Assembly (NCBI GenBank): GCA_030680805.1
Contig: JAUXUK010000060.1
Coordinates: 1 to 64,000 of the forward strand
From: Sulfuritalea sp.
GTDB taxonomy: Bacteria > Pseudomonadota > Gammaproteobacteria > Burkholderiales > Rhodocyclaceae
Reading direction: 5' to 3'
DNA: 64,000 bases
Below the pieces are notes generated by a model, which was given only the letters and a program-made list of their open reading frames with translations, made no database searches and was not told the DNA's origin. Positions 26,884 to 56,087 of this stretch are shown here, in pieces. The position numbers and the translations under genes were made by a program. How positions within the stretch are numbered: the stretch's first letter is position 1; every line of letters starts with the position of its first letter.

Positions 26884-28023
26884 ATGAGCAGTTTGCCGCT
26901 CGTTGAGTGGACCGAGGACGGCGCGGCGCGGTCTGCCCGCTGGCATTCCGAAGGCGGGGCGCCGGCGCCGAAACGCGTGGTCGTTGCCGATGATCGCATC
27001 ACGGCCGACGCTGCCTATCGATTGGCGTGCGAAGGCACTGCCTTGCTGTGGCGGGGCGATTTCAACAATGCGCGCCAGTTGCTGCAGGCCATGGCGCGGC
27101 GCGTCGATCGCAAGCCGCGCAAAGCGGCGGCATCGACAACGGCTCCGGCCGAGGCTTTCCATTTCTACCGTCAGGCGCAATCGCTGCGTGCACGCACCCT
27201 GGGCATGCTGTTGCTGCCCTTCGATGGCGACTACCGGCTGCCGCTGCGACGGGCGCCCGACGTGCGTCAGGCCTGCGTCGAAGCCTATGGCGATGGTGCC
27301 GCGCCATTCGTCGCGTCGTTGAGGGAATTGCTGGGCCTGATCGGTGCGCACGAATGGCGCAAGAAGGGTGTCGAGGTGCCGGCACTGGGCCAGCGTATCC
27401 ATCCGCATTACGGCGTCTTTGCTCCGGTGCGCGGCGAGTATGTCGGCCTGGTGGCCGCGGCGCCGCTGCCGTCCGGATGCACGCTGGCTTTCGACATTGG
27501 CACCGGCACCGGCGTCCTCGCCGCGGTGCTTGCGCGGCGGGGCATCGCGCGCATCGTTGCCACCGACCAGGATCCCCGGGCGCTGGCGTGCGCTCGCGAG
27601 AATATCGAACGCCTCGGGCTGGCGGCGCAGGTGGACGTGGTGGCGGCCGATCTGTTCCCGCCGGGCCGCGCGTCGCTGGTGGTGTGCAACCCGCCATGGG
27701 TTCCGGCCCGCGCCGGTTCTCCGCTCGAGCGCGCCGTCTACGACCCCGACTGCCGCATGCTGATGGGATTCATCAAGGGCCTTGCGGCGCATCTGGAGCC
27801 GGGCGGCGAAGGCTGGCTGGTGCTCTCCGACATTGCCGAGCATCTGGGTTTGCGCTCGCGCGCCGAACTGCTGGCTGCCTTCGATGAGGCAGGCCTCGAC
27901 GTGGCGGGGCGGATCGACGCCAAGCCCGGCCATCCGCGTACCGCAGACACCACCGATCCGCTGCATGCCGCACGTGCCGCGGAACTGACTTCGCTTTGGT
28001 GCCTGACGGTGAGGAACGGGTAG
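26884..28023 (+). CDS. Class I SAM-dependent methyltransferase
   Basis: LAFDIGTGTGVLAAVLARRGIARIVATDQDPRALACAREN ... VVCNPPWVPA. Confidence 0.85.
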   Translation: MSSLPLVEWTEDGAARSARWHSEGGAPAPKRVVVADDRITADAAYRLACEGTALLWRGDFNNARQLLQAMARRVDRKPRKAAASTTAPAEAFHFYRQAQSLRARTLGMLLLPFDGDYRLPLRRAPDVRQACVEAYGDGAAPFVASLRELLGLIGAHEWRKKGVEVPALGQRIHPHYGVFAPVRGEYVGLVAAAPLPSGCTLAFDIGTGTGVLAAVLARRGIARIVATDQDPRALACARENIERLGLAAQVDVVAADLFPPGRASLVVCNPPWVPARAGSPLERAVYDPDCRMLMGFIKGLAAHLEPGGEGWLVLSDIAEHLGLRSRAELLAAFDEAGLDVAGRIDAKPGHPRTADTTDPLHAARAAELTSLWCLTVRNG

Positions 28024-28043
28024 AATCGATCAGACCTAAAGCA

Positions 28044-31000
28044 ATGCAAGAGATGATGCCGCTCGAGGACAGCAAGCAACTCTTTCCGCGCAAGTTCTGG
28101 CCGACGCTGGTCATGTTCCTTGTGCTGGTCATTGTTTTTGGCGTCTACGTCGACTCCGAAAAGCAGATTGATCGTGCCAACGATCAGCGGCATTTTTCCC
28201 TGTTGCTCGCCCAGCAACTGCGGCAGTCGTCGGATGATCTGACCCGCATGGCCCGCACCTATGTGGTCACCGGTGACCCGCGCCACAAGAAGTACTACCA
28301 GGACATACTGGATATTCGCAACGGTAAAGCGCCGCGGCCGGAAGGCTATCTTTATGCTTACTGGGATCTGGTGCTGGCGGCAGGAAGGGCCCCGCAGACG
28401 AGTAGTGGGCCGGCGATAGCCTTGCTCGAGCTGATGCGTCAGGCGGGATTTACTGAAGTCGAATTGCAGAAGCTGGCCGAGGCCAAGTCGAATTCCGACG
28501 GGCTGACGGTCATCGAGTTCGAGGCCATGAAACTGGCCGAGGGCTCGGGTCCCGCTGCCGCGGTAGCCCGTACCAGAGCGCTCATGATGATGCACGACGC
28601 CAGCTACCATCAAGCCAAGGCGGCCATCATGAAGCCGATCAACGAGGCCTATCGGATGATGGACACGCGCACCGCCGATCAGGTGCTGGCGGCTGAGCGC
28701 ACCGCCGTTCTGTTCCGCTTCGTGTTCATTTTTTTCTTTCTCGGCGCTGCGTTCATGCTCTGGCGGGCGCGTGCCGCCCTGCACGCGACGCTGGGAGGAT
28801 CGGCAGACGAGATTCACGCGCACATCTTCGGAATCGGCCGGGGTAATTTTTCTTCGTCCATCATGGTCCCTGCCGGAATGGAGGAAAGCGTGCTCGCTGG
28901 TTTGTCTGCCATGCAGGACAGGCTGAAGGCGGACCAGACGGCGCGCGAAGTGGCCAATACCGAATTGCGCCTGTCGCAGGAGAGGTTTTTGACGGCCTTC
29001 AGTTCCTGCCCGGTCGCGGCATCGATAGCCGCAGCGGACGACGGGCGTTTCATGGAGGCCAACGACAATTACGAACGGGATTTCGGCTGGCCCAGAAGCG
29101 AGCTGATCGGCAGGACCTCGGTGGAGGTCGGCATCTGGCCGGATCAGGCGACGCGCGCACCGTGGGCCGAGGCGATTCGCCGCGAAGGCCGGCTGGTCAA
29201 CTACGAGACGGTCTGGATGCACAAGAATGGCGAGCGGCGCAATGTCAGCCTGTCGGCCGAGACTACCGAGCTCAACGGCAAGACCTGCATCCTGGCCTAT
29301 GCCACCGATATCACGGCGCGCAAGCGGGCCGAGCAGGCACTGGTGTCCAGCGAAACGCGGTTGCGCGCCGTGCTGGATGGCGTGCAGAGCGGTGTGGTGA
29401 CGATTACCGAGAACGGCATCGTCGAATCCTTCAACCAATCCGCCGAACGGATGTTCGGTTACGGCGCGGACGAGGTCGTCGGCAGGAATGTCGCCATGCT
29501 GATGCCGGCGCCTTACAGTGCGGCGCACGACGGGTATCTCGAGAACTACCGCCGCAGCGGCATCCGCAAGGTCATCGGCTTCAGTCGCGATGTTATCGCC
29601 CGACGCAAGGACGGCTCAACATTTCCGATCGAGCTGGGCGTCACCGAGACGTTCCTGAACGGGACGAGGTTCTTCATCGGCAGCGTCAGCGACATCAGTT
29701 TTCGCAGGAAGGCCGAGGCCGAGCTGCGCATCGCGGCGACGGCCTTTGAATCCCAGGAGGGCATGGTCGTCACCGATCCCGCCGGCGTGATCCTGCGGGT
29801 CAACAAGGCGTTCACGGAAATATCGGGCTACACCGCCGAAGAGGTCATCGGTCAGACGCCGCGCCTGCTGAAGTCCGGCCGCCACGACGCCGCGTTCTAT
29901 GCCGCGATGTGGGAGAGCCTCGCCAGCACGGGAGCATGGCAGGGAGAAGTCTGGGACCGGCGCAAGAACGGCGAGATATATCCAAAGTGGCTGACCATCT
30001 CCGCGGTAAAGGGCGATGACGGGGTCGTAACCCACTATGTCGGCACGCATCAGGACATCACCGAGCGCAAGAATGCGGAGGAAAGAATCAAGGAACTGGC
30101 CTTCTTCGATTCCCTTACTCGCCTGCCCAACCGCACGCTTCTGATGGATCGCCTGAAGCAGGCCATGACCGCCGGTAACCGCAACGGGACGTTCGGTGCC
30201 GTGCTGTTCATCGACCTCGATCATTTCAAGACGCTGAACGATACCCTGGGCCATGACAAGGGCGACCTGCTGCTGCAGCAGGTGGCGCAGCGTCTCGCGG
30301 CCAGCGTGCGCGAGGGTGACACCGTGGCGCGGCTGGGCGGCGACGAGTTCGTGGTGGTGCTGGGCAGCCTGAACAAGACCGCCGGGGAGGCCGCCAACGA
30401 GACCGAAGCCGTGGGAGAAAAGATTCTCGCTGTCCTCAATCAGACCTATCTGCTCGGGGATATTGATTACCGCAGCACGGCGAGCATCGGCGCCACCCTG
30501 TTTCGCGGGCATGAGACCTCCATTGAGGATTTGCTGAAACAGGCCGACCTCGCCATGTACAAGTCCAAGGCAACCGGGCGCAATGGCCTGCATTTTTTCG
30601 ATCCGGCGATGCAGACGGTGGTGGTCGAGCGAGTCGCACTGGAAATGGGTTTGCGCACGGCCATCGAGGGCAATCAGCTCCTGCTCCATTACCAGGCCCA
30701 GGTGGGCGCAGCGGGACGCGTCACGGGGGCCGAAGCCCTGGTGCGCTGGCGGCATCCCGAGCGCGGCATGGTGTCTCCCGCCGAGTTCATCCCCCTGGCC
30801 GAAGAAACCGGGCTGATCCTGCCTTTGGGCCAATGGGTGCTGGAAACCGCCTGCGCCCAGCTTGCGCAGTGGGCAATCCGGCCGGAAATGGCCCATCTCA
30901 CGCTGGCCGTGAATGTGAGTGCGCAGGAGTTCCGCGACCCCGACTTTGTCTTGAAGGTGGTGGCGATCCTCAATCAGACCGGCGCCAACCCGAATCGGCT

Positions 31001-31394
31001 CAAGCTGGAACTGACCGAAAGCCTGCTGGTGGACAATGTGGAGGACGTCATCGAAACGATGTTTGCGCTGAAGGCCCGGGGCGTGGGCTTTTCGCTGGAC
31101 GATTTCGGCACCGGCTATTCCTCGCTGTCCTATCTGAAGCGCCTGCCGCTGGACCAGTTGAAGATCGACCAGTCGTTTGTGCGCGACATCCTCATCGACC
31201 CGAACGACGCCGCGATTGCCCGGACCATCGTGGCGCTGGCCGAAAGCCTCGGACTGGGCGTGATCGCCGAGGGCGTCGAGACTGAAACGCAGCGCGCCTT
31301 CCTCGCCAGTGCGGGCTGCCAGGCTTACCAGGGCTATTTCTTCAGCAGACCGCTGCCGGTCGAGGGCTTCGAGGAGTTTGCGCGCCGGGTTTGA
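28044..31394 (+). CDS. Membrane PAS-GGDEF-EAL protein
   Basis: TM helices, multiple PAS domains, RLGGDEFVVVL and GAEALVRWRHP motifs. Confidence 0.92.
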   Translation: MQEMMPLEDSKQLFPRKFWPTLVMFLVLVIVFGVYVDSEKQIDRANDQRHFSLLLAQQLRQSSDDLTRMARTYVVTGDPRHKKYYQDILDIRNGKAPRPEGYLYAYWDLVLAAGRAPQTSSGPAIALLELMRQAGFTEVELQKLAEAKSNSDGLTVIEFEAMKLAEGSGPAAAVARTRALMMMHDASYHQAKAAIMKPINEAYRMMDTRTADQVLAAERTAVLFRFVFIFFFLGAAFMLWRARAALHATLGGSADEIHAHIFGIGRGNFSSSIMVPAGMEESVLAGLSAMQDRLKADQTAREVANTELRLSQERFLTAFSSCPVAASIAAADDGRFMEANDNYERDFGWPRSELIGRTSVEVGIWPDQATRAPWAEAIRREGRLVNYETVWMHKNGERRNVSLSAETTELNGKTCILAYATDITARKRAEQALVSSETRLRAVLDGVQSGVVTITENGIVESFNQSAERMFGYGADEVVGRNVAMLMPAPYSAAHDGYLENYRRSGIRKVIGFSRDVIARRKDGSTFPIELGVTETFLNGTRFFIGSVSDISFRRKAEAELRIAATAFESQEGMVVTDPAGVILRVNKAFTEISGYTAEEVIGQTPRLLKSGRHDAAFYAAMWESLASTGAWQGEVWDRRKNGEIYPKWLTISAVKGDDGVVTHYVGTHQDITERKNAEERIKELAFFDSLTRLPNRTLLMDRLKQAMTAGNRNGTFGAVLFIDLDHFKTLNDTLGHDKGDLLLQQVAQRLAASVREGDTVARLGGDEFVVVLGSLNKTAGEAANETEAVGEKILAVLNQTYLLGDIDYRSTASIGATLFRGHETSIEDLLKQADLAMYKSKATGRNGLHFFDPAMQTVVVERVALEMGLRTAIEGNQLLLHYQAQVGAAGRVTGAEALVRWRHPERGMVSPAEFIPLAEETGLILPLGQWVLETACAQLAQWAIRPEMAHLTLAVNVSAQEFRDPDFVLKVVAILNQTGANPNRLKLELTESLLVDNVEDVIETMFALKARGVGFSLDDFGTGYSSLSYLKRLPLDQLKIDQSFVRDILIDPNDAAIARTIVALAESLGLGVIAEGVETETQRAFLASAGCQAYQGYFFSRPLPVEGFEEFARRV

Positions 31395-31440: not shown

Positions 31441-31467
31441 TAAGGTTTCTCCGCAAAGTGCCGTAAC
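31441..31467 (+). promoter_or_regulatory. Candidate sigma28 (FliA) promoter
   Basis: TAAGGTTT-N11-GCCGTAAC versus consensus TAAAGTTT-N11-GCCGATAA. Confidence 0.5.
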
Positions 31468-31498
31468 AGTAGTACTGACTACGCAGGAGCGCCGGAAC

Positions 31499-31645
31499 AT
31501 GAAATTCAAGGTGAATTACAAGGGAATCCAGAAGTACATCGGCCAGTTGGAATTGGCCAATGCTTATCTGGCGAAGCACTGGGGCTCGGTTTCGAGGGCC
31601 TATGAACTTGGAGTCAAGCTGGAGCTTGTGCAGCAAGGCAGATAA
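31499..31645 (+). CDS. 48-aa hypothetical small protein, absent from the supplied ORF track
   Basis: RBS AGGAG then MKFKVNYKGIQKYIGQLELANAYLAKHWGSVSRAYELGVKLELVQQGR*; own candidate promoter and terminator. Confidence 0.65.
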   Translation: MKFKVNYKGIQKYIGQLELANAYLAKHWGSVSRAYELGVKLELVQQGR

Positions 31646-31686
31646 AGGAGCCCCCGGTCTTGCGCGCAGAAGCATTCCCCGAGCCC

Positions 31687-31724
31687 CCAAAAACAAACCC
31701 CGCCATGGCGGGGTTTGTTTTTGG
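31687..31724. terminator. Bidirectional intrinsic terminator, 38-bp perfect palindrome
   Basis: CCAAAAACAAACCCCGCCATGGCGGGGTTTGTTTTTGG between convergent sORF and dctP. Confidence 0.92.
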
Positions 31725-31754: not shown

Positions 31755-32873
31755 TTACTTCTTCTTCGCCGGCGCTGCCTTGGCCTTGGCAAAACGACCG
31801 GTCTGCATGAAGTTGTCGAAGCCGGCTTCGGTGAAGCGGAACCACAGGTGCTGCTCGTCGCGAAATGCGGCGTAGTCCGAATAGACCTTCTTCCACGCCG
31901 GATTCTTGTTCGACAGATCGTCGTAAAGCGCCATGGCGGCCTCGTAGGCGGCCACCATGATGCTCTTGTCGAACTGATGCAGCTTGGCGCCGGCGGCGAC
32001 CAGACGCTTGAGCGCCGCCGGGTTCTTGGCGTCATATTTGGCCTGCATCACCACGTGGGCATGGGAGGCGGCAGACGCGAGAACAGCCTTGTAATCCGCC
32101 GGCAGCGCGTCATAGGCTTTCTGGTTCACGTAGAGCGAGAGCTGCGGACCGCCTTCCCACCAGCCGGGGTAGTAGTAGTGCTTGGCGACCTTGACGAAGC
32201 CCAGCTTCTCGTCGTCGTAGGGGCCGACCCACTCGGTGGCGTCGATGGTGCCTTTTTCCAGGGCCTGGTAGATTTCGCCGCCGGGGATGTTCTGCGGCAC
32301 ACCGCCGATGGCCGACAGCACCTTGCCGCCGAAGCCGCCGATGCGCATCTTGAGGCCCTTGATATCGGCCAGCGACTTGATTTCCTTGCGGTACCAGCCG
32401 CCCATCTGGGCGCCGGTGTTGCCCATCGGGAAATTCACGATGTTGTAGTTGGCATAGAACTCGCGCAGCAATTTCATGCCGTTGCCTTCGTACATCCAGG
32501 CGGTCATCTGGCGGCTGTTGAGGCCGAAGGGAATCGCGCAGTCGATGGCGAAGGTGTCATCCTTGCCGAAGAAGTAATACGGGGCGGTGTGGGCGCACTC
32601 GACGGTGCCCTGCTGCACGCCATCCACCACGCCGAAAGCCGGCATCAGTTCGCCGCCGGCATGGACGGAAATGACGAACTTGCCGCCGGTCGCGTCCGAG
32701 ACCGCCTTCGAAAAGGTTTCGGCCGCGCCGTAAATGGTGTCGAGCGCCTTGGGGAAGCTCGATGCCAGGCGCCAGCGAATGGCGGGGGCGGCTTGCGCGT
32801 GAACCGCCGGTGCGGCACCGGCAGCCAGGATGCCGGCAATACCGGCATTTTGCAGAAACTTGCGACGTTCCAT
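31755..32873 (-). CDS. dctP: TRAP transporter substrate-binding protein (TakP-like, 2-oxo acid type)
   Basis: MERRKFLQ Tat-like signal; WRLASSFPKALDTIYGAAE, GNTGAQMGGWYRKEI, IDATEWVGPYDDEKLGF resemble TakP. Confidence 0.85.
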   Translation of the reverse strand: MERRKFLQNAGIAGILAAGAAPAVHAQAAPAIRWRLASSFPKALDTIYGAAETFSKAVSDATGGKFVISVHAGGELMPAFGVVDGVQQGTVECAHTAPYYFFGKDDTFAIDCAIPFGLNSRQMTAWMYEGNGMKLLREFYANYNIVNFPMGNTGAQMGGWYRKEIKSLADIKGLKMRIGGFGGKVLSAIGGVPQNIPGGEIYQALEKGTIDATEWVGPYDDEKLGFVKVAKHYYYPGWWEGGPQLSLYVNQKAYDALPADYKAVLASAASHAHVVMQAKYDAKNPAALKRLVAAGAKLHQFDKSIMVAAYEAAMALYDDLSNKNPAWKKVYSDYAAFRDEQHLWFRFTEAGFDNFMQTGRFAKAKAAPAKKK

Positions 32874-32955
32874 GTATGGATCTCCTCGTTGTTGTTTAAA
32901 CATGACGACTGGGCCGGATTGGTCCGTCGCCAGATGCTACACCACAAAACCTTTC

Positions 32956-54357: not shown

Positions 54358-55587
54358 ATGCCCAGCTTCGCCTATCGCGGCCGCAACGACGCCGGGGACA
54401 TCGTGCAAGGCGTCATGGAAGGCGCTACTGCCGGGGCGGTGGCCGACCTGATCGTCGGCAGCGGCGTCACGCCGATGGAAATCAAGCCGACAACGGCTTC
54501 GACGGGCAAGGCCGGGTCGGGTATCGACCTCCAGTTGTTCAAGCAACAAGTCGAGCACATGGACGTGCTGCTGTTCTCGCGGCAGATCCATACCCTGTTG
54601 CGCGCCGGCGTGCCCATCATGCGTGCACTGGCCGGCTTGCAGGAATCCAGTACCAATTCGGCAATGCGGGATGTGCTGCAGGACGTGCGCGAAAGCCTCG
54701 ATTCCGGACGTGAGTTATCCTTGTCGCTGGCTCGCCATCCCAAGGTTTTTTCGCCCTTCTATCTGTCCATGGTCCGCGTCGGCGAAATGACCGGACGGCT
54801 GGAAGAGGTCTTCATCCGCCTGTTCGACCACCTTGCATTCGAGCGTTTCATGCAGGAGCAGGTCAAGTCGGCGCTGCGTTACCCATCATTCGTCGTTGCC
54901 GCCATGGGCATCGCCATCGTCATCGTCAACATTTTCGTGATCCCGGCTTTCGCCAACGTGTTCAAAGGGCTCGGCGCCGAATTGCCCCTGATGACGCGCC
55001 TGCTGATCGGCTTTTCCGACTTCATGGTGAACTGGTGGCATGCGATGCTTGTCGGCGTGATTGGTGCCTTTTTCGGCTTCAAGGCATGGCTGGGGACGTC
55101 CAGCGGCCGCTACACATGGGATCGCTACAAGTTGAAGATTCCGATTGCCGGAAAAATCATCCGCAAAGCCACCCTGGCCAGATTTGCGGCCAGCTTTGCG
55201 CTCGCCTCGCGTAGCGGCGTACCGATCATCCAGGCCCTGACCAATGTCGCCGAGACGGTGGACAACGCCTACATTTCGGACAAGGTCGAAAAGATGCGCG
55301 ACGGCGTTGAGCGCGGCGAAAGCATCCTGCGCACCTCGATTTCCGCTGGCGTGTTTACCCCTGTGGTGCTGCAGATGATTGCCGTGGGCGAAGAATCTGG
55401 CGCGCTCGACGACATGATGAAGGAAGTCGCCGACATGTACCAGAGCGAGGTCGAATACGAACTGAAGACCCTGGCGCAGCAGATCGAGCCGATCCTTATC
55501 ATTGCGCTGGGCATCATGGTCCTGATTCTCGCGTTGGGCATCTTCCTGCCCTTGTGGGATCTGGGCAAAGTATCGCTGAGGAAATGA
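54358..55587 (+). CDS. mshG: MSHA biogenesis inner-membrane platform protein MshG (PilC/GspF family)
   Basis: MPSFAYRGRNDAGDIVQGVMEG...; two GspF domains. Confidence 0.93.
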   Translation: MPSFAYRGRNDAGDIVQGVMEGATAGAVADLIVGSGVTPMEIKPTTASTGKAGSGIDLQLFKQQVEHMDVLLFSRQIHTLLRAGVPIMRALAGLQESSTNSAMRDVLQDVRESLDSGRELSLSLARHPKVFSPFYLSMVRVGEMTGRLEEVFIRLFDHLAFERFMQEQVKSALRYPSFVVAAMGIAIVIVNIFVIPAFANVFKGLGAELPLMTRLLIGFSDFMVNWWHAMLVGVIGAFFGFKAWLGTSSGRYTWDRYKLKIPIAGKIIRKATLARFAASFALASRSGVPIIQALTNVAETVDNAYISDKVEKMRDGVERGESILRTSISAGVFTPVVLQMIAVGEESGALDDMMKEVADMYQSEVEYELKTLAQQIEPILIIALGIMVLILALGIFLPLWDLGKVSLRK

Positions 55588-56087
55588 GCGAGGTAACGCC
55601 GCTTTCGCGCTCGCTGTTTCAAGTTTCGGTGGTGGTTGCCGTTATAGCCTTGCTGGCCGCCGTCTTGCTCAATTCGCTAAGCTATGTGCAGGAAAAGGCC
55701 GAGCGGACGATGGTCGAAGCGACGGTGCTGAACATGGAAAAGGGCCTGCAAATCGAGATCCAGACCCGGGAAATCCGTGGGCAGTCGGCGACCATCGGGG
55801 ACCTTGTCGGGGCCAATCCGGTGAACTGGCTGGCAAGTCCGCCGAAGGGGTACGCAGGGGTTTGCAAGAAGACAAAGGCGCCCGGCGAGTGGTGTTTTGA
55901 CGAGACGACGCGCGAAATTGCCTATCGGCCGCGGCTTGAAGCAAGCCTTGAATTCCGCGAGCCGGGAAGGCGGGACTTGCGCTGGCGCGTGGGGTCGGCC
56001 CAGGAAATCGCCGGGGGGCCGGCCGGAGATTCCGTCGTGGTGGGTGGAATCAGGGTGTTTTCCACTACCTCTTTCGTATGGCACTGA
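55584..56087 (+). CDS. MshF-like pilus accessory protein
   Basis: ATGA-overlap with mshG; single N-terminal TM; position matches mshF. Confidence 0.6.
   Translation: MSEVTPLSRSLFQVSVVVAVIALLAAVLLNSLSYVQEKAERTMVEATVLNMEKGLQIEIQTREIRGQSATIGDLVGANPVNWLASPPKGYAGVCKKTKAPGEWCFDETTREIAYRPRLEASLEFREPGRRDLRWRVGSAQEIAGGPAGDSVVVGGIRVFSTTSFVWH

Follow-up and report, generated by a model that had tools for sequence, protein, structure and literature searches.

Does the short unit lying between two larger genes in the 64,000-nucleotide stretch of Sulfuritalea sp. DNA analysed here (the window) encode a protein of the flagellar regulon, a regulatory RNA, or neither? Judged from its sequence, the small gene is almost certainly a protein gene regulated by FliA (sigma28). 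Taking regulation and role together, we assign a probability of about 0.78 to the reading that it is an orphan gene of the late-class FliA regulon encoding a soluble microprotein.

The 48-aa protein and its family

The unit begins with a FliA (sigma28)-type promoter-like site (31441..31467, + strand), which consists of a -35 element TAAGGTTT (31441-31448) and a -10 element GCCGTAAC (31460-31467) separated by an 11-nt spacer, ctccgcaaagt. A Shine-Dalgarno sequence AGGAG (31485..31489, + strand) follows 18 nt after the -10 element, not about 30 nt past the promoter as the earlier note had it, and lies 9 nt 5' of the ATG. The small gene (31499..31645, + strand) starts with this ATG at 31499, 58 nt downstream of the promoter-like site, and terminates with a stop codon at 31643-31645, giving the 48 codons and exactly the 48-aa product quoted before. 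Downstream of the ORF, the 38-bp perfect palindrome that had been described (31687..31724, no strand) is indeed gapless, with arms 31687-31705 and 31706-31724 of 100% complementarity, and is likely a bidirectional intrinsic terminator common to the small gene and the convergent gene of a TRAP-type DctP solute-binding protein (31755..32903, - strand). The latter gene and the upstream gene of a PAS-GGDEF-EAL protein (27996..31394, + strand) both lie outside the small-gene unit.

The earlier note had proposed a search for homologues in Rhodocyclales, and conserved homologues were found in 18 genomes, all from the same family and distributed over 6 genera. Of 121 relatives, 13 proved to carry the gene in protein searches; a profile search across 299 genomes of the family recovered it from 14 (~5%; 6 of 68 genera). 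The nearest named homologues belong to Sulfuritalea and other Rhodocyclales MAGs, and identity among the homologues falls to about 35%. They share the motif M-x-F-x-V-x-x-K-G ... G-x-L ... W-G-S ... A-x-E-x-G-V-K-L, with 11 invariant columns among the 14 core members (M1, V5, K8-G9, G15, W28-G29-S30, A34 and G38-V39). As expected of a protein-coding microprotein gene, the reading frame is under purifying selection, with a dN/dS of 0.01-0.14 in most close pairs and up to 0.37 in a few, at dS values near 0.5-2.4, at which synonymous sites are close to saturation.

AlphaFold2 predicted the structure of the 48-aa protein from 22 aligned sequences with a pLDDT of 90.5 and a pTM of 0.64. The model adopts a compact strand-strand-helix-helix-strand fold, in which the invariant K8-G9 sits in the hairpin turn and W28-G29-S30 in the break between the two helices. 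Searches of the PDB by sequence and by fold revealed no significant resemblance to any solved structure. Altogether, the homologues in 18 genomes, the low dN/dS and the confident model indicate that the 48-codon ORF is a real protein gene under strong purifying selection.

The 48-aa protein scores below the curated cut-off of every Pfam and NCBIfam family, and no credible homologue was found outside the family-level taxon, where sampling of the order and the class turned up only weak matches of short length. As far as searched, the family is restricted to one family-level lineage (Rhodocyclales, Sulfuritalea and relatives), and within the libraries searched it appears to be undescribed. Interrupted copies occur in genomes G022 (contig C208) and G046 (contig C21), which suggests that the gene is dispensable. 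In G046 (loci L072 and L075), the copy is interrupted by a stop codon, and a divergent, longer paralogue of 85 aa without a FliA-type site is located ~1 kb away; long versions resembling this paralogue are also present in G535 and G468 (L073 and L074).

The FliA-type promoter and its conservation

The earlier description of the site at 31441-31467 as closely resembling the FliA consensus with N11 spacing is a fair one: it agrees at 12 of 16 positions with the E. coli/Pseudomonas consensus (the Pseudomonas version being TAAAGTTT-N11-GCCGATAA; PMC7286023), and at 13 of 16 with the local consensus derived here, TAAAGTTT-N11-GCCGTTAA / GCCGTAA. Nowhere else in the genome is its own pattern matched without mismatch, and a site of its score would arise at a background rate of 1.5e-5 per site under a FliA matrix that was derived from other genes. 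Moreover, as expected of a FliA regulon member, a FliA-type promoter at the correct spacing is conserved together with the gene across species. The earlier note had asked for the same promoter in front of the homologues, and 15 of the 18 copies have a FliA-type site; in nearly every member it lies 54-60 nt 5' of the start codon, even at 35-55% protein identity. At the 16 promoter positions, identity among the four closest members is 94-100%, compared to a near-random 32-33% in the 100 nt further upstream. Because the site is conserved, a chance origin can be excluded.

Established late flagellar genes of the same genomes were compared in both directions, with matrix scans covering contig C51, the window and the fetched loci. 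When trained only on the small-gene promoters of the other family members, a matrix gave its highest score within the 400 nt upstream of flgM to the promoter of that gene in each of the 16 carriers with a detected flgM; the distance to the ATG is 63-66 nt in those with a resolved start. The same matrix also selected good sites upstream of many flagellin genes (fliC). In the reverse direction, a matrix trained only on flgM and fliC recognised a site upstream of 15 of the 18 small genes and, at the same score, of 1 in 522 control ORFs from the same loci; its training sites had been located with the first matrix, hence the reverse test is not fully independent, though the positions of the flgM sites are consistent by themselves and agree with the published consensus.

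A genome-wide search for the exact pattern with up to 3 mismatches gave 38 matches, compared to 70 for the reversed control. Since it is not enriched, the exact pattern cannot define the regulon, and the flgM/fliC-based matrices were used instead. Scanning with a loose, hand-weighted FliA consensus was too noisy for use. Upstream of the MCP genes of the own genome, the matrix revealed no FliA site that was clear enough for use, thus the regulon definition rests here on flgM and flagellin. The literature searched yielded no paper dealing with a FliA regulon of Sulfuritalea.

Further FliA-like sites were noted in the same genome. One near-perfect site, TCAAGTTT-N11-GCCGTTAT (55619-55645, + strand), lies within 55554-56087, a pilin-like ORF in a cluster resembling type II secretion/type IV pilus systems; it could be a chance match or an intragenic site, as FliA also binds such sites in E. 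coli (PMC4183435). Two tandem sites 72 bp apart, TAAAGTTT-N11-ACCGATAG and TAAAGCTT-N11-ACCGATAA, are found upstream of a flagellin gene at locus L142 (G000:C51:68801 and 68873, - strand). In addition, the sequence TAAGGGTTGTGGGATGCCTGCCTTAG is identical on seven contigs of this assembly (C12, C20, C51, C82, C88, C93 and C96), close to the end of C51 and, in C12 and C20, at position 113; it probably represents a repeat element coinciding with assembly breaks.

Co-occurrence with flagella and genomic context

The source assembly (G000) is a draft of 3.14 Mb in 107 contigs and 86% complete. A genome lacking fliA had been named as evidence against FliA control, but the own genome encodes both FliA (266 bits) and the anti-sigma factor FlgM, as expected of a genome with a FliA regulon. 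Their genes and that of flagellin are all on a separate contig, C51, which bears out the claim that the small gene is away from the flagellar locus. FliA scores above the cut-off in 16 of the 18 carriers. In G022, fliA is split over two contigs; G035, which is 98% complete, has the small gene with its promoter and two flagellins, and no fliA or flgM was found in it, probably a draft gap given the presence of flagellins. Each of the 18 carriers thus has fliA (one split) or flagellin.

Within the genus, the small gene is present in 9 of 21 FliA-positive and in none of 10 FliA-negative genomes (one-sided p = 0.015, with G022 taken as FliA-positive). Over the 121 relatives, the co-occurrence with FliA falls short of significance (p = 0.13; 0.33 with G022 counted as FliA-negative). 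As related genomes are not independent, counts of this kind overstate the number of events. Most flagellated relatives are devoid of the small gene, which is therefore accessory and cannot be essential for flagellar assembly in general. A second FliA/WhiG-type sigma factor above the family cut-off, besides the best one (~190-207 bits), was observed in G002, G007, G037, G043, G045 and G468.

The adjacency to a GGDEF-EAL gene pointed out before is real, but the link it seemed to imply did not hold. Among the carriers inspected, this neighbour is common to G000 and G002 only, the carriers of other genera have unrelated genes beside the small gene, and no conserved neighbour of the family was found; a functional link to the GGDEF-EAL gene was accordingly rejected. 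The terminator palindrome is kept in G002 and, near-perfect, in G024 only. With the neighbours varying and the palindrome rarely kept, the constant parts of the unit are the promoter and the protein.

Alternative explanations and the predicted role

In E. coli, sigma28 drives the small RNAs UhpU, MotR, FliX and FlgO (PMC10578931), and the small-gene transcript might likewise serve chiefly as a small RNA under FliA control, or as a dual-function RNA, with a secondary ORF. The predicted transcript of ~250 nt would terminate in a strong hairpin and folds with a z of -3.2, but much of this folding excess stems from the terminator, and the palindrome is absent from most family members. No Rfam family matches. 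Changes in the coding sequence are overwhelmingly synonymous (G000 and G024 differ at 10 of 28 synonymous and 1 of 104 nonsynonymous sites), which leaves the RNA sequence free to vary, and no conservation of RNA sequence or structure beyond the coding need was found. The resemblance to the E. coli RNAs lies in the short, here predicted, FliA-dependent transcript; those are UTR-derived base-pairing RNAs, whereas selection here acts on the protein. We consider a primarily RNA function quite unlikely. Slightly less likely still is a promoter of another sigma factor, for instance an ECF sigma factor with a CGTAA-like -10 element. It would account for the -10 element GCCGTAA in place of GCCGATAA and for the carrier G035, in which no fliA was detected. 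Nevertheless, the flgM promoters of the same genomes combine a GCCGTAA/GCCGTTA -10 element and the same spacer with a TAAAGTT/TCAAGTT -35 element, and several promoters of the small-gene family, TAAAGTTT-N11-GCCGTTGA or -GTCGTAAT, are ordinary FliA-like ones.

Domestication of a small protein of phage or mobile origin under a flagellar promoter would fit the patchy distribution and the changing neighbours. Six family members weakly match phrog_15102, a 63-aa phage family of unknown function, and the nearest folds are small uncharacterised phage proteins, none of them significant (two with a probability of 0.99-1.00 and a TM of 0.73-0.87, but an E of 0.1-0.2). The profile similarity to phrog_15102 covers only residues 5-32 of the 48-aa protein, with E values of 8e-4 at best to 8e-3, and tblastn gave no phage relative. 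Against these hints, no homologue was present in 50,697 phage records or in viral contigs, no credible one was found on plasmids, and promoter and protein have remained linked across deep divergence. Such an origin is improbable, though it is the least improbable of the alternatives. Spurious ORFs are abundant in a high-GC genome, yet a chance ORF behind a chance promoter-like string is practically negligible and already refuted by the homologues, the dN/dS and the conserved promoter.

The sigma28-controlled, motility-linked microprotein put forward in the earlier note is thus strongly supported at the level of sequence, by homologues, purifying selection and promoter conservation, and the dual-function sRNA offered beside it is not, given the near-saturated synonymous sites, a palindrome confined to the nearest relatives and the missing Rfam family. 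Well supported are a conserved, selected protein, a conserved FliA-type promoter and a presence in genomes with flagellar genes. We propose that, once the hook-basal body is complete and FlgM has been exported, FliA-RNA polymerase would transcribe from 31441-31467, and the promoter is presumably active in vivo. The product would be a short monocistronic mRNA, to be translated into the 48-aa soluble protein. The latter might, as a small cytoplasmic adaptor or regulator, adjust the motor, chemotaxis or the change between swimming and life on surfaces; it would not be a structural part of the flagellum, because it is absent from most flagellated relatives. An accessory-regulator role is nonetheless tentative. 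Equally tentative is the broader possibility that these soluble proteins of ~45-50 residues form, in a subset of Rhodocyclales, a new direct regulator of motility or chemotaxis within the late flagellar programme, with for example the motor, a stator or a c-di-GMP enzyme as its target.

Judged against E. coli and Campylobacter, the predicted regulation is of an already known kind. FliA of E. coli drives small orphan genes away from flagellar loci, such as flxA, ynjH and yjcZ (PMC4183435). The promoter architecture is shared with the class III/late regulon of E. coli, with -35/-10 elements of the TAAAGTTT-N11-GCCGATAA type, but the -10 element here is GCCGTAA/GCCGTTA, and the 48-aa protein shares no Pfam or NCBIfam family with the named regulon members. 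The Feds of Campylobacter jejuni are, as summarised in a later paper, sigma28-dependent genes without a direct part in assembly (Barrero-Tobon and Hendrixson 2012, cited in PMC6196472); they belong to a distant phylum-level lineage, and the small gene is likened to them by that description.

Through orphan FliA-regulon genes, lineages equip a universal machine with accessories, and microproteins of fewer than 50 residues easily escape annotation. The present family, which is found in some flagellated bacteria but not in other, closely related ones, offers a clean and testable example with one gene, one promoter and one small, confidently modelled fold. Moreover, the local consensus TAAAGTTT-N11-GCCGTTAA / GCCGTAA is usable for mapping late flagellar regulons in this lineage.
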